Positions 51,688-58,681 of a DNA stretch of 64,000 nt are shown one piece after another (position 1 is the first letter of the stretch; each line of letters begins with the position of its first letter). The position numbers and the translations under genes were made by a program. The DNA is from Luteimonas rhizosphaericola (GTDB lineage Bacteria > Pseudomonadota > Gammaproteobacteria > Xanthomonadales > Xanthomonadaceae), in assembly GCF_029888045.1 (NCBI RefSeq), contig NZ_JARXRN010000028.1, positions 701,678 through 765,677 of the forward strand. Direction: 5' to 3'. The notes beneath the pieces are model-generated. The model made no database searches. It was not told where the DNA came from and saw only the letters and a list, made by a program, of their open reading frames with translations.

Positions 51688-52038
51688 ATGGCCGCCCTGT
51701 CTGCCGATCCTTCTGCCCGGACGCGGATCCTGGATGCGATCCGAGACGTTCCGCACGGGTCCGTGGCCGGCTACGGCCAGATCGCCCGGCGCGCCGGCCT
51801 GCCGGGGCGGGCGCGGCTCGTCGCGCGCCTGCTCGCGGACAACGAGGATCCGTCGCTGCCCTGGCACCGGATCCTGCGCCACGACGGACGCATCGCGTTT
51901 CCCGCCGGCTCGAAGCCGCACCGCGAACAGGCGCGGCGCCTGCGCGCGGAGGGCGTGGCCGTGGTGGCCGGACGCGTGCGCATGCCGCGCGCGGACGACC
52001 TCGACGCCGCGTTGTGGGGACCGGTGCCGCACCGCTGA
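51688..52038 (+). CDS. Alkyltransferase-like protein (ATL), MGMT family without the reactive cysteine
   Basis: 116 residues. The MGMT fold is clear: ILDAIRDVPHGSVAGYGQIA, GLPGRARLVARLLAD and DPSLPWHRILRHDGRIAFP. The active-site motif is PWHR with Trp59 in place of the methyl-accepting Cys of PCHR. ATL proteins bind O6-alkylguanine without removing it and feed nucleotide-excision repair. So it should be a damage sensor. The -10-like TATCCT/CCTAAT lies 5-8 bases before the ATG, another near-leaderless layout. Confidence 0.88.
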   Translation: MAALSADPSARTRILDAIRDVPHGSVAGYGQIARRAGLPGRARLVARLLADNEDPSLPWHRILRHDGRIAFPAGSKPHREQARRLRAEGVAVVAGRVRMPRADDLDAALWGPVPHR

Positions 52039-52100
52039 ACGCAGGACGCGGAACGTGCGCACCGTGACCTCGGCCGGCCGGCGTACCGGGCTTCCACCGT

Positions 52101-52106
52101 TATCAT
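52101..52106 (+). promoter_or_regulatory. Candidate -10 of the rhomboid gene
   Basis: TATCAT, 21 bases before the ATG, with AGGAG 9 bases before the ATG as a ribosome site. Confidence 0.4.
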
Positions 52107-52127
52107 GGGCGCAGTGCAGGAGCGCCG

Positions 52128-52781
52128 ATGTTCACCAATCTTCCCCCCGTCACCAAGGCTTTGCTGATCGCCAACTGCGGCGTGTTCGTGCTGCAGCTGC
52201 TGCTCGGTCCGGCGCTGGACGCGCTGATGCTGTGGCCGTGGCTGCCGCCGGAAGTGGCCCCGTACGCGCCGCACGGCTTCATGCCGTGGCAGCTGCTCAC
52301 CCACGGCTTCATGCACAGCCCGAGCAACATCGCGCACCTGCTGTTCAACATGCTGGCGCTGCTGATGTTCGGCGCCCAGCTCGAGTACGCGTGGGGGCAG
52401 AAGCGGTTCCTGACCTATTTCCTGGTATGCGTGGTCGGCGCCGGGCTGTGCCAGCTGCTGGTGGTGTCCTGGAGCGTGCGCAACGGCGGCGGCTACTACC
52501 CGACGGTGGGCGCGTCGGGCGGCGTGTTCGGCCTGCTGCTGGCCTACGGCATGCTGTTCCCGAACCAGCGGGTGATGCTGCTGATCCCGCCGGTGCCGAT
52601 GAAGGCGCGTACGCTGGTGATCGTCTACGGGCTGATCGAGCTGGTGCTCGGCATCACCGGCACCCAGTCCGGCGTGGCCCACTTCGCGCACCTGGGCGGG
52701 ATGCTGTTCGGCTGGCTGCTGATCCGCCACTGGCGCGGCCAGCCGCCCTTCGGCGGGCGGCGGGTGCGCCGGGTGGTCTGA
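52128..52781 (+). CDS. Rhomboid-family intramembrane serine protease
   Basis: 217 residues with about six membrane spans. Catalytic Ser130 is in PTVGASGGVFGLLLAYGM and His188 in VAHFAHLGGMLFGWLL. The conserved HGFMHSPSNIAHLLFNM supplies the oxyanion Asn. It cleaves membrane proteins within the bilayer; substrates unknown. A C-terminal Arg-rich tail follows the last span. Downstream an 18-bp perfect palindrome (CGCCAGCAC and its complement, 52796-52813) may be a terminator-like hairpin. Confidence 0.92.
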   Translation: MFTNLPPVTKALLIANCGVFVLQLLLGPALDALMLWPWLPPEVAPYAPHGFMPWQLLTHGFMHSPSNIAHLLFNMLALLMFGAQLEYAWGQKRFLTYFLVCVVGAGLCQLLVVSWSVRNGGGYYPTVGASGGVFGLLLAYGMLFPNQRVMLLIPPVPMKARTLVIVYGLIELVLGITGTQSGVAHFAHLGGMLFGWLLIRHWRGQPPFGGRRVRRVV

Positions 52782-54370: not shown

Positions 54371-56407
54371 CTACTTCGCCGCTGCTGCGTCCACGGGCTG
54401 GCGCCAGATCGAGACCTGTTCTTCCGGCTTGCGCACCATCGCCGTGCCGGCCTTGCACTTGAAGGTCTCGGCGAAGGCTGGCAGGTTGACCAGCGGACCG
54501 TTCGCGCGCCACTGGCCCGGAGCCTGCACGCGGGTGCGCGCGGCATCGGCGGCGGTCTCGGCAGCCAACTGCTCGCGCCACAGCGCCGCCCAGGCGCGGA
54601 AGAAGGACTCACGACCAGCCGCGTCCAGCTCGGGCTGCGCGCCGGCAAGCGCGGCCGAGGCCAGCTCCAGCGCCGCGAGGTCGGCCATGTTGCCTTCGCT
54701 GGTGAGGGTGCCGTTGACCTTCAGGCCGTTGGCGGCGGGATAGTCGTAGCCGGCGTACTGCACCGCGAGCTGCTTGGCGCGGGTGGAATAGGCGGCCTCG
54801 TCGGTCGGCGTCCACCAGGTGCGCACGCTGCCGGCGGCGTCGACCAGCTGGCCCTTCATGTCGACCGCGCGGCTCAGTTCGTGACCCACCAGGGCGCCGA
54901 AGCTGCCGTACTGCGCCGGGGTGTCCTGTTCCATGTCCAGCACCGGCGCCTGCAGGGCGGCGGCGGAGACGATCAGCCGGTTGTGGGCGATGTCGTAGGC
55001 CAGGACCGGCTGCTGCGGCTGCACGCCCCAGCGGCGCTGCGCGTTGCCGCTGCCGATGCGGCGCATCTCCTCGCGCCGGTGCCAGGTGGAGGCGATCAGC
55101 ATGTTGCTGCCGAAGCTGGTGCGGCCCATCGGCTGCACGCTGAAGTCGTAGTCGCGCTGCGGCGCGCCGATCTCGATCGACAGCTTCTCGAGCTTGGCCG
55201 CCGCTTCGGCGCGCGCGGCGTCCGACATCCAGGTGTTACCTGCGACCGCGCGCACCAGCGCGGCGCGCACGTCGCCGGCGATCGACTCGGCGCGCGAACG
55301 CGTGGTGGCCGGCAGGTAGCGCGCCACGTATTCGCGCGCGAGCATCGGACCGGCGGCGCGGTTGATGGCGTCCAGCACCTGCACGTCGCGCACCTTCGGC
55401 GCGGTCTCGCCGCGCAGCACCCGGCCGTGGAACGAGAAATGCGCGTCGCGGAAGTCCTTGGCCAGGTACGGCGCCATCGCGTTGCCGATCTGGTAGCGCA
55501 GGTAGACCTTCCACTGCGCCGGCTTGAGCGAGCGCACCAGGCCGTCGACCTGGGTGAAATAGTCGGCGTGGGCCATCGACACGTTCGTGTCGGTCACGCC
55601 CTGCGCCGACAGGAATTCGTCCAGCTGCAGGTTGCGGAACTGCTTGCCCAGACCCTCGGTGGGCATCAGGGCGTAGTTCTCGCGCGGATCGCGCAACGAC
55701 GTGAGCGGCTTCGAGATGCGCGCCAGGCGCGTTTCCAGGTCGAGGACCTGCGCCATCTCGTCCTTGAGCTGTTCCTGCGGCGTGCCGGTCAGGGCGAGGA
55801 TCTTCTCGACGTACTCGGTGTAGCGGCCGAGCAGGGCGCGGGTGTCGGCGTCCTCGCGGGTGTAGTAGGCCGGGTCGGGCAGGGCCAGGCCGCCCTGGGA
55901 GAAATAGCCGATGTAGCGGTCGAGGTTGGCCAGGTCCAGGTCGGCGGTGAAGTTGAACACCACCGGGATGCCGACCTGGTGCAGCGCCGCGATCGACGGC
56001 GCGATGTCCTTGCTGCGGCGGATGGCCTCGATGCGCGAGAGCAGGGTGGCGATTGGCTGCGCGCCGTCGCGTTCCACCGCCGCCTCGTCGATGCCGCTGG
56101 CCCAGAAATCGCCGAGCAGCTTCTGCACGTCGTTCTGCGGGTTGAGCACCGCGTCGTCGAGCAGGGCGCGCTGCTGCAGCAGGGCGCGCTGCTGCAGGGT
56201 GCCCAGGGCCGAGACGGTGCCGTTGCCGCTGACCACCGTGTTGGCCGTCAGCCAGTCCTTGTTGACGAAGGTGTAGAAGTCGCTGCAGGCGGTGAGCGCG
56301 GGCTCCGCCGGCGCACGGCGCTTGCGCTGGGCCTCGGCGTGGGGAGCGGCCAGGGCGAGCACGAGGCTGGTGGCGAGGGCGGCGGCGAGCGGCGTGCGGA
56401 TCGGCAT
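54371..56407 (-). CDS. M13 (neprilysin-like) metallopeptidase homologue with degenerate active site
   Basis: 678 residues with a signal peptide (LVLALAAPHAEAQ). The overall M13 layout is present: ACSDFYTFVNKDWLTANT, the long helical domain, then the zinc region. But HExxH reads VGHELSRAVD (His509, Glu510, Arg513), so the second zinc His is Arg. ExxxD reads TSEGNMADLAALE, where the Glu is Gly572 (Asp576 kept). The upstream NAYY motif is VLAYDIAHN. So the protein should not bind zinc normally. The frame is intact over 2 kb, so it is maintained, not a decaying pseudogene. Same strand and 165 bp after an intact M13 gene, with a terminator between. Confidence 0.85.
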   Translation of the reverse strand: MPIRTPLAAALATSLVLALAAPHAEAQRKRRAPAEPALTACSDFYTFVNKDWLTANTVVSGNGTVSALGTLQQRALLQQRALLDDAVLNPQNDVQKLLGDFWASGIDEAAVERDGAQPIATLLSRIEAIRRSKDIAPSIAALHQVGIPVVFNFTADLDLANLDRYIGYFSQGGLALPDPAYYTREDADTRALLGRYTEYVEKILALTGTPQEQLKDEMAQVLDLETRLARISKPLTSLRDPRENYALMPTEGLGKQFRNLQLDEFLSAQGVTDTNVSMAHADYFTQVDGLVRSLKPAQWKVYLRYQIGNAMAPYLAKDFRDAHFSFHGRVLRGETAPKVRDVQVLDAINRAAGPMLAREYVARYLPATTRSRAESIAGDVRAALVRAVAGNTWMSDAARAEAAAKLEKLSIEIGAPQRDYDFSVQPMGRTSFGSNMLIASTWHRREEMRRIGSGNAQRRWGVQPQQPVLAYDIAHNRLIVSAAALQAPVLDMEQDTPAQYGSFGALVGHELSRAVDMKGQLVDAAGSVRTWWTPTDEAAYSTRAKQLAVQYAGYDYPAANGLKVNGTLTSEGNMADLAALELASAALAGAQPELDAAGRESFFRAWAALWREQLAAETAADAARTRVQAPGQWRANGPLVNLPAFAETFKCKAGTAMVRKPEEQVSIWRQPVDAAAAK

Positions 56408-56517
56408 CGAACGGGTCCGGGGCGGAATTCGGGAGCGGCGATTCTAGCAAGCCGCCCGGCCGCGCCCGCATGCCTCCGGCTGCGGGGGCGGTACCGGAGC
56501 GGGGTGGGTTCCTGAAC

Positions 56518-56548
56518 GGAAAACGCCCGGCCATGCCGGGCGTTTTCC
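56518..56548. terminator. 14-bp hairpin between the two M13 genes
   Basis: GGAAAACGCCCGGC, loop CAT, exact complement ending TTTTCC. Positioned 25 bp after the intact M13 stop; it should separate the two transcripts at least partly. Confidence 0.85.
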
Positions 56549-56572
56549 TTCATCACGCGACAGCGCCGGCGC

Positions 56573-58681
56573 TTACCAGATGACGACCTGGTCCTCGCCG
56601 CCGCGCACCATCGGGTCGCCGGGCTTGCACCCGAACGCCGCGGCGAACGCCGGCAGGTTCGACGGCGCACCGATGGCCCGGAACTCGGCCAGTGCGTGCT
56701 CGTCGGTGACCAGGCGCTTGCTCAGCTCCTCGGGGGTGAAGTTGCGGCGCCACACCGTGGCCCAATTCAGGAAGAACCGCTGGTCGCGGGTCAGCCCGTC
56801 GGTCATCGGGTCCGGCGTGCCTTCGGTGGCCTTCTTCATCGCGTCGTAGGCCGTGGCCAGGCCGCCGAGGTCGCCGATGTTTTCACCCAGGGTATGCGTG
56901 CCGTTGAGTGCACGGCCGTCGCTGGTCTTGTAGCCATCGAACTGCGCGACCAGCTTGCCGGTGCGCTCCTTGAACGCGGCGGCGTCCGCTTCGGTCCACC
57001 AGTTCTCGAACTTGCCGGTCGGGCCGAAGCGGCTGCCCTGGTCGTCGTAGCCGTGGCTCATTTCGTGGCCGATCACCGCGCCGATGCCGCCATAGTTCAT
57101 CTCGTCGGTCGCATCCGGATCGAAGAACGGCGGCTGCAGGATCGCGGCCGGGAACACGATCTCGTTCTGCAGCGGGTTGTAGTAGGCATTGACCATCTGC
57201 GGCGGCATCGCCCATTCGGTCTTGTCGACCGGCTCGCCGATCTTGCCGATCTGCCACTTGTAATTGAATTCCTGCGCGGCCAGCACATTGTCCAGGTAGC
57301 TCTCGCGCCCGGTGTCCAGGCCGGTCCACTCCCGCCACTTGTCGGTGTAGCCGATCTTGGTGGTGAAGGCGGCCTGCTTCTCGAGCGCCTTGGCCTTGGT
57401 CTCCGCGCTCATCCATTCCAGGTTCTGGATGCGCGCCTTCAATGCCTCGCCCAGGTTGGCGACGAGCGCTTCCATCTTGGCCTTGGACTCGGGCGGAAAG
57501 GCGACCTTCACGTACAGCTGGCCCATGGCTTCGCCGACCTGGCTGTCGATCGTGCCGAGCACGCGCTTCCAGCGCGGCTCGAGCTCCTTCTGGCCGCTGA
57601 GGGTCTTGTTGTAGAACTCGTAGTTCTGCTGCACGAAGGCGTCGGAGAGGTACGGCGAGGCGCTGTCGACGACGTGGAAGCGCAGGTAGCTCTTCCACTG
57701 CTCCACCGGCACGTCGGCCAGCATCGCGTCGACTTCGCGGAAGTAGTCGGGCACCGAGACCGAGAAGGTCTTCGGCTGTTCGATGCCCTGGGCCTGGAAG
57801 AACTGCGTCCAGGAGAAGTTCGGCGTCAGCTTGTCGGCATCGGCCACGGGCATCGGGTTGTAGTAGAGCGAGACGTCGCGCGAGAACTCCGCGCGCGACT
57901 TCGACGCCGCCGCGAGCCGGGTCTCGAACGCCATGACGTCCTTCGCCTGGGCCGCTGCGTCGGCCGCCGGCACGCCGGAGAGTTCCAGCACCTTGGCGAT
58001 GTGGGCCACGTAGGCGTCGCGGATGGCCTGCTTGTCGGCATCCTTGTAGTAGGGCGTGTCGGGCAGGCCGAGACCGCCCTGGCCGGTGGCGGCGATATTG
58101 ATCGACGAGTCCTTGAAATCCGGCATCGAACCGATGCCGATCAGGAAGACCTGGCCCCTGGCGGCGCTCTCTCGCAGCCAGGCGGCGATCGCGGCGCTGT
58201 CGGCGAGCGCATCGATGCGGGCCAGCTCGTCGCGCAGCGGCTCGATGCCCTGGGCGTTGATCGTCGCCTCGTCCATGCCGGTGGCCCAGAAGTCGCCGAC
58301 CAGCTTCTCCACGCCGCTCGCGCCGGTGTCGGCGGCGGCCTGTTCGGCCAGCTGGCGCTGGATCGCGGTGGAGCGTTCGTCGAGCATCTCGAACGCGCCC
58401 CAGCTGGTGCGGTCGCCCGGGATCGGGTGGGCGGCGAGGAACTTCGCGTTGGCGTAGCCGGCGAAGTCGGTGCAGGCGTTCTTCGAGGTGTCGAGGTCGG
58501 CGAGCTGGAACTGGTTGAACGGGGGCAGCTTGCTCTCGTCCAGGGTCATCTCGCGCGCGGCGGGGGCGTCGGCCGGCGCGGTGGCGGCGGTCGCGGCCGG
58601 GGCGGCCTCGCGCTGGCAGGCGCTCACGGCCAGGGTCACGGCGAGGGACAACAGCAGCAGTCTTGGTGCGGTGGGGCTCAC
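56573..58681 (-). CDS. M13 family metallopeptidase, lipoprotein, intact active site
   Basis: 702 residues from a GTG with GGAGA upstream. A lipoprotein signal ends LAVSAC. Catalytic motifs are complete: NAYYNPLQNEIVFPAAILQP, IGHEMSHGYDDQGSRF (His539, Glu540, His543) and TLGENIGDLGGLATAYDAM (Glu600, Asp604). The N-terminus of the mature part shows ACTDFAGYANAKFLAAHPIP, and the C-terminus ends EDQVVIW. M13 enzymes cleave short peptides at hydrophobic residues; here expected in the periplasm. An ATG 129 bp upstream would give a non-signal Arg-rich start. Confidence 0.94.
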   Translation of the reverse strand: MSPTAPRLLLLSLAVTLAVSACQREAAPAATAATAPADAPAAREMTLDESKLPPFNQFQLADLDTSKNACTDFAGYANAKFLAAHPIPGDRTSWGAFEMLDERSTAIQRQLAEQAAADTGASGVEKLVGDFWATGMDEATINAQGIEPLRDELARIDALADSAAIAAWLRESAARGQVFLIGIGSMPDFKDSSINIAATGQGGLGLPDTPYYKDADKQAIRDAYVAHIAKVLELSGVPAADAAAQAKDVMAFETRLAAASKSRAEFSRDVSLYYNPMPVADADKLTPNFSWTQFFQAQGIEQPKTFSVSVPDYFREVDAMLADVPVEQWKSYLRFHVVDSASPYLSDAFVQQNYEFYNKTLSGQKELEPRWKRVLGTIDSQVGEAMGQLYVKVAFPPESKAKMEALVANLGEALKARIQNLEWMSAETKAKALEKQAAFTTKIGYTDKWREWTGLDTGRESYLDNVLAAQEFNYKWQIGKIGEPVDKTEWAMPPQMVNAYYNPLQNEIVFPAAILQPPFFDPDATDEMNYGGIGAVIGHEMSHGYDDQGSRFGPTGKFENWWTEADAAAFKERTGKLVAQFDGYKTSDGRALNGTHTLGENIGDLGGLATAYDAMKKATEGTPDPMTDGLTRDQRFFLNWATVWRRNFTPEELSKRLVTDEHALAEFRAIGAPSNLPAFAAAFGCKPGDPMVRGGEDQVVIW

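Follow-up and report, generated by a model that had tools for sequence, protein, structure and literature searches.

Two adjacent genes for M13 metallopeptidase-like proteins, here called A and B, lie in a 64,000-nucleotide (nt) stretch of the Luteimonas rhizosphaericola genome (contig NZ_JARXRN010000028.1, positions 701,678 to 765,677; this whole stretch is referred to as the window). B has an intact zinc site, whereas A has lost two zinc ligands, and the locus raises the question of whether A is a dead peptidase that has been retained, as an original prediction had it, and what it might do. We examined the zinc site, phylogeny, selection, predicted structure and gene neighbourhood of A across Lysobacteraceae. 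Purifying selection acts on the orthologues even though their catalytic residues have been altered many times and in varying combinations, and we concluded that A is probably a Sec-exported M13-fold pseudopeptidase whose function is independent of the zinc site.

Both reading frames in the window are complete, and the pairing of an intact M13 gene with a paralogue lacking two zinc ligands was confirmed: B has HEMSH, GENIGD and VNAYY (at residue 497), and A has HELSR, EGNMAD and a broken NAYY motif. All three checks for active-M13 motifs, HExxH, the Glu of ENxxD, and VNAxx/NAY(F)Y, failed in A (HELSR, Gly572 and PVLAYD, respectively). The one-base route from His to Arg513 is possible, the second zinc His codon of B being CAC and the Arg513 codon of A being CGC (54869-54871; the Gly572 codon is at 54692-54694). 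The motif Asn lost from A corresponds to neprilysin Asn542, and Arg634 of A stands at the place of neprilysin Arg717. One change was absent from the original prediction, namely Gln628 of A at the neprilysin His711 place. Both proteins passed the curated Pfam cut-offs for Peptidase_M13_N (A, 283 bits; B, 395.8 bits; cut-off 32) and Peptidase_M13 (A, 130.5 bits; B, 228 bits; cut-off 24.5), the two domains being in order in A, and both fell below the curated cut-off of 1000 bits of the NCBIfam endopeptidase PepO equivalog NF052391 (A, 192; B, 335.1). In a search of the genome, one M13 gene came up besides A and B, three in all; it lies on contig C8 and carries HEIIH and GENIGD. The closest named record for A is from Luteimonas kalidii, with 94% identity over A.

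The A protein of the window was searched in 198 Lysobacteraceae genomes, with at most five first-look candidates scored per genome. The A clade is present in 154 of them: 150 genomes have one match each with at least 44% identity, and 4 more, with matches at 42-43%, were placed in the clade by the tree. An A-type match was not found in the remaining 44 genomes, an absence that is not firm given the number of candidates scored and the incompleteness of some genomes. In an order-level search of 151 genomes, 54 had a match with an E value of 1e-100 or better; 25 of these genomes belong to the family and 29 to other families. The outside matches were 32-35% identical to A, except one at 58% (L169, the single A-type gene of genome G249, which is from another family of the order and 77% complete). 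This gene may reflect contamination or transfer. A further 120 loci were fetched and 155 distinct A rows were retained for alignment, leaving out L001 and L003 (repeated or partial window gene), L158 (cut by a contig end) and four duplicates; L169 brought the set to 156 rows and L195-L198 to 160. B-type rows (n = 129) were distinct frames of at least 250 amino acids (aa) in the same loci that were closer to B than to the A protein of the window.

All four catalytic residues (H, E, H, E) were kept in 129 of 129 B-type rows and in 45 of 155 A-type rows of the same alignment. In the enlarged set of 160 A rows, HExxH and the third-ligand Glu were intact in 45 and at least one of the four residues was lost in 115; three zinc ligands were kept in 45 rows, two in 68, one in 37 and none in 10. 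By position, the first His was kept in 129 rows, the catalytic Glu in 143, the second His in 79 and the third-ligand Glu in 100, and the substitutions at the ligand places include Ala, Thr, Met, Ile and Gly. The His711 counterpart was lost in 74 rows and kept in 86, including 39 of the 45 intact rows. The motif Asn is gone in 159 of 160 rows, and the exception, L195, has Asn there beside other losses. The Asp576 and Arg634 places were each kept in 160 of 160. Outside the family, the M13 protein L187, from another family of the order, reads GENIAGL, with Gly in place of the Asp that is universal among the A rows. In PepS, Arg660 forms a salt bridge to the Asp of ENxxD, and the His711 counterpart is required for activity, according to an excerpt of the published work (PMC4701951); we equated Arg660 with Arg634 of A through its spacing from the His711 counterpart.

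These counts bear on an alternative in which A is still a peptidase, acting through another metal geometry or a metal-free mechanism. Retention of the HExxH Glu in most rows and of all four residues in 45 would fit such an enzyme, but the ten rows without any zinc ligand, the kinds of residue found at the ligand places, and the losses of the His711 counterpart and the motif Asn argue against it, and we consider it distinctly unlikely. The two changes in the window differ in how far they are shared. Among the seven distinct rows with at least 78% identity (L004-L007, L034, L035 and L043), Arg513 is present in all seven and Gly572 in four, the other three having Glu; the conservation that the original prediction proposed to check is thus seen for Arg and only in part for Gly. 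Across the clade the Arg/Gly combination is one of 39 distinct four-residue states among the 160 rows, and an intact site survives in more than a quarter of them. Compensation of the third-ligand Glu by Arg513 was also considered, and there was no sign of it: where the second His is replaced by Arg, 41 of 64 rows retain the Glu, and where the His is still present, 47 of 79 do.

A tree was built with IQ-TREE in quick mode, with the four ligand columns excluded, and the A clade was recovered with a Shimodaira-Hasegawa-like approximate likelihood ratio test (SH-aLRT) support of 95. The minimum number of changes by Fitch parsimony, counted per residue, was 11 for the first His, 4 for the Glu, 7 for the second His and 20 for the third ligand, a sum of 42; under an assumption of irreversible loss, the intact state was lost 14 times. 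Just outside the A clade, beyond nodes with supports of 95 and 83, stand L201 (HExxH and Glu intact, Asn lost) and L199 (HELMH, ENIAD and NAYY all intact), and because of their position we place an intact M13 protein near the root. Also just outside are L184 (HELMR, Ser as third ligand, NAYY kept) and L200 (HELMR, NVFY). Here the second His has been lost with the Asn still present, and therefore an order in which the Asn goes first and the metal site later is limited to the A clade. L184 (genome G040) and L200 (G088) represent further zinc-site loss in M13 genes beyond the A clade.

If the zinc site of A had been lost because the gene is functionless and decaying under relaxed selection, the scattered catalytic residues and the 44 genomes with no firm A-type match would find an explanation. 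We estimated the ratio of nonsynonymous to synonymous substitution rates (dN/dS) by the Nei-Gojobori method (NG86) in 56 disjoint near pairs, one of which was excluded for too few synonymous changes. In this check, which the original prediction had put forward, the values were well below 1: the Luteimonas pairs tried gave 0.14-0.38, and the 39 pairs with broken zinc sites family-wide gave a median of 0.18 (0.177; maximum 0.53), compared with 0.163 in 16 intact-intact pairs (Mann-Whitney p = 0.64). Where B could be measured as well (42 pairs), dN/dS was 0.160 for A and 0.194 for B. The likeness of broken pairs to intact A pairs and to B argues against decay of the gene. The A frames are also open, 160 of 162 having a match over at least 560 residues of window A and the other two being cut by a stretch or contig end, although frameshift-split genes could escape the candidates scored per genome. 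Twenty-six columns are invariant over 156 A rows plus 24 B-type or outside rows. An A-only signature of 50 columns (conservation of at least 95% across the full set of A rows, with a residue unlike the B majority) had a mean identity of 0.97 in the 115 broken rows and 0.99 in the 45 intact rows; because both groups of rows had served to select the columns, the values tell us only that the two groups are alike. Within it, L142, H143 and P148 (window A numbering) are found in 156 of 156 A rows. Taken together, the dN/dS values, the open frames and the signature led us to reject decay as highly improbable.

The variety of zinc-site states could also mean that each sub-clade has a protein with a specialisation of its own, marked by its zinc-site loss, and that the group has no single function. 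The 39 states are in keeping with this, and they follow genera: by genus code (n = 40, named rows counted apart), 28 are broken-only, 8 intact-only and 4 mixed. However, the rows form one well-supported clade, lie mostly downstream of B, and have one signature in common, and we regard separate functions as unlikely.

An AlphaFold2 model of A (17-row alignment, best of five) had a predicted local distance difference test score (pLDDT) of 83.6 and a predicted template modelling (pTM) score of 0.81. In a structure search with this model, each of the 19 chains with an E value of 0.001 or better came from an M13 entry, with template modelling (TM) scores of 0.87 to open Zmp1 (6xly) and 0.85 to TfPepO (9eyg; Z 36.9, root-mean-square deviation (rmsd) 3.1 over 631 residues). 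The M13 fold is thus predicted to be kept in A despite the lost metal ligands. The rmsd of the A model was 2.5 to 6xly and 7.1 to the inhibitor complex of Zmp1 (3zuk), compared with 3.6 and 3.9 for the B model, a weak hint, from one model on a 17-row alignment, that A may prefer the open form.

The two proteins differ at the N-terminus. A lipoprotein pattern was present in window B and in 73 of the 77 B rows that reach the protein start; it matched in 9 of 160 A loci, each time upstream of a likely AxA cleavage site, and these matches were taken for probable chance. Over the 15 residues before the Cys (Cys41 in window A), the median net charge was +4 for A (155 rows) and -1 for B (97 rows). 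The basic tail is missing in 6 of 7 rows of one intact sub-clade (L066, L073, L129, L152, L134, L137 and L140). Zinc-site state could not be tied to the tail in an independent-pair test with only 6 contrasts.

In the mechanism that we propose for A, the clamshell cavity would still bind a peptide or envelope ligand, holding it as a carrier, sink or sensor and not cutting it. The basic tail at the N-terminus, in the position of the lipid anchor of B, may bring A to an anionic envelope surface. The zinc ligands and the transition-state His would be free to drift, having no further use in the function, and Asp576 and Arg634 would be retained as requirements of the fold. A shift from cutting to holding would be the simplest account of the near-universal Asn loss together with scattered ligand loss. 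More tentatively, the whole family-wide group could be a zinc-free envelope peptide receptor or sink that descends from an active ancestor through early loss of the Asn and then dozens of separate zinc-site changes, a scenario that we put forward as possible.

A binding protein of this kind does not require A to depend on B. The original prediction had suggested that A is a binder, inhibitor or chaperone of its active neighbour, and in a related form A would be a regulatory or structural partner (inhibitor, chaperone or non-catalytic subunit) of the lipoprotein B, in the manner of two-gene M16 peptidases, for which an excerpt of a recent review describes prokaryotic MPP homologues encoded in a two-gene operon (PMC11266112). 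The neighbourhood was surveyed in 159 A loci, four of them repeat records of a gene. B was present upstream, in the same orientation, in 132 and absent from there in 25, and the remaining 2 had less than 700 nt of flank, which gives 132 of 157 loci with at least 700 nt; B lies within 617 nt of A in 127 of the 132, with a median gap of 185 nt. This adjacency and the differing charges of the N-terminal linkers speak for a partnership. On the other side, a GC-rich hairpin followed by a T run (perfect stem of at least 7, 60% G+C, loop of 3-8, 4 T in 6) occurs in 94 of 124 distinct B-A gaps of 20-700 nt, starting at a median of 27 nt past the B stop, and when the gaps were shuffled, five times over, the counts were 0, 0, 2, 0 and 0 of 124. 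With a hairpin in most gaps, A and B therefore look adjacent yet separately ended, and their co-transcription is doubtful. The hairpin of the window fits this rule and was unreported by a stricter terminator scan (5 T in 8 bases); a promoter scan run alongside found none. Of the 25 A loci without B, four have 1.15-1.5 kb of flank and 21 have about 3 kb or more upstream with no B there. An independent-pair test, with only 6 contrasts, could not connect adjacency with the state of the zinc site, and A and B are only ~31% identical. We took the adjacency as old linkage, which lowers the chance of a partner role, and judge that role unlikely. The claim of a retained, exported homologue stood on its abnormal zinc site, its export (by sequence) and its purifying selection; service to the neighbour is so far unsupported. 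A terminator-like hairpin is common family-wide although the A-B pair resembles an operon. In L040 (4200-6275) and L010 (Luteimonas sp. 4-12), the B frame is unlike its relatives past about residue 606, after GENIAD, with A whole, which may be a frameshift or an assembly error.

Several points weigh against a zinc-independent function throughout the clade. Among the 45 rows with all four residues, some proteins may have remained able to bind zinc or to cleave, in which case function would vary within the clade; losing the motif Asn does not by itself have to end activity; and Glu571, adjoining Gly572 in window A, might conceivably move in to act as a ligand. Equal-cost Fitch parsimony on the combined state gives 7 changes with a non-intact root and leaves the direction unsettled, although we consider the regain of exact ligands that such a root implies less likely. 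The mean pLDDT of the five A models spans 69.7 to 83.6, and NG86 is crude for GC-rich codons. With these points weighed, a pseudopeptidase with a binding function remains our best reading of A. The features of the locus are collected in Table 1. Near the pair, at 51688-52781, lie two further genes, one encoding an O6-methylguanine transferase DNA-binding domain and the other a rhomboid domain, with no link to the pair seen.

Table 1. Features of the A-B locus, in window coordinates.
Feature	Coordinates	Strand	Basis
A: exported M13-fold pseudopeptidase (predicted), 678 aa, ATG start	54371..56407	-	frame, Pfam domains, model
B: intact M13 peptidase, 702 aa, GTG start, lipobox-like VSAC at residues 19-22	56573..58681	-	
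A residues 1-26, signal peptide of Sec type with AEA at its end, followed by Gln27	56330..56407	-	by-eye reading of sequence
A residues 27-40, basic mature N-terminus ahead of Cys41	56288..56329	-	
A residues 142-149, LHQVGIPV, piece of the A-only conserved signature	55961..55984	-	
A PVLAYD (467-472) where B has VNAYY; Asn place is Val468	54992..55009	-	
A HELSR (509-513), Arg513 at second zinc His	54869..54883	-	
A EGNMAD (571-576), Gly572 at third zinc ligand; Asp576	54680..54697	-	
A Gln628 at neprilysin His711 place	54524..54526	-	
A Arg634	54506..54508	-	
B HEMSH (539-543)	57053..57067	-	
B GENIGD (599-604)	56870..56887	-	
Terminator-like hairpin AAAACGCCCGGC-ATG-GCCGGGCGTTTT inside the 165-nt B-A gap	56520..56546	-	

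Pseudoenzymes are usually seen as a single frozen loss, and the A group shows intact, partly lost and wholly lost sites among relatives, and in most loci an intact B-type M13 protein next to A serves as an internal control. This makes it possible to test directly both the sequence of changes in the A clade, substrate motif first and metal site later, and the remaining function, and a receptor or sink, if true, would be a natural experiment in which an enzyme turns into a receptor. In practice, annotation as M13 metallopeptidase by domain only can name proteins in Lysobacteraceae that are probably unable to cut. No bacterial M13 pseudopeptidase clade was found among the best matches of a literature search of open-licence PMC papers, and the A clade would add a bacterial case to the inactive M13 homologues already known in insects.

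PepO, Zmp1 and PepS share with A and B the fold, the length and both Pfam domains, and B has all the catalytic motifs checked; A, unlike these enzymes, is without two zinc ligands, the Asn of VNAxx and the His711 counterpart. The two-gene M16 peptidases (prokaryotic MPP homologues), as excerpted (PMC11266112), resemble A-B in that an inactive homologue is encoded beside an active one, but they belong to a different peptidase family, and most A-B loci have a terminator-like hairpin between the two genes. By analogy, the nearest likeness may be to the Drosophila Nepl proteins such as Nepl15 and Gone early, M13-fold proteins that are, like A, predicted to be inactive. Twenty-one Drosophila Nepl genes are predicted inactive in the portion available of one study (PMC8223033), and in the passages found of a 2024 review of metallopseudopeptidases Gone early is the sole M13 example (PMC11266112). 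In Nepl15, Arg stands at two of the three zinc-ligand positions, the Asp-His-zinc triads retain their Asp residues, and binding and sequestering of peptides has been proposed, as given in extracts of that work (PMC7822871). The Nepl proteins are from insects, and the A group is bacterial and confined to one family among the genomes searched, apart from one doubtful outside match; unlike Nepl, the A group shows many separate losses inside one orthologue group. The best reading of A is a metal-independent M13-fold binding protein, which would be comparable to the insect Nepl pseudopeptidases.

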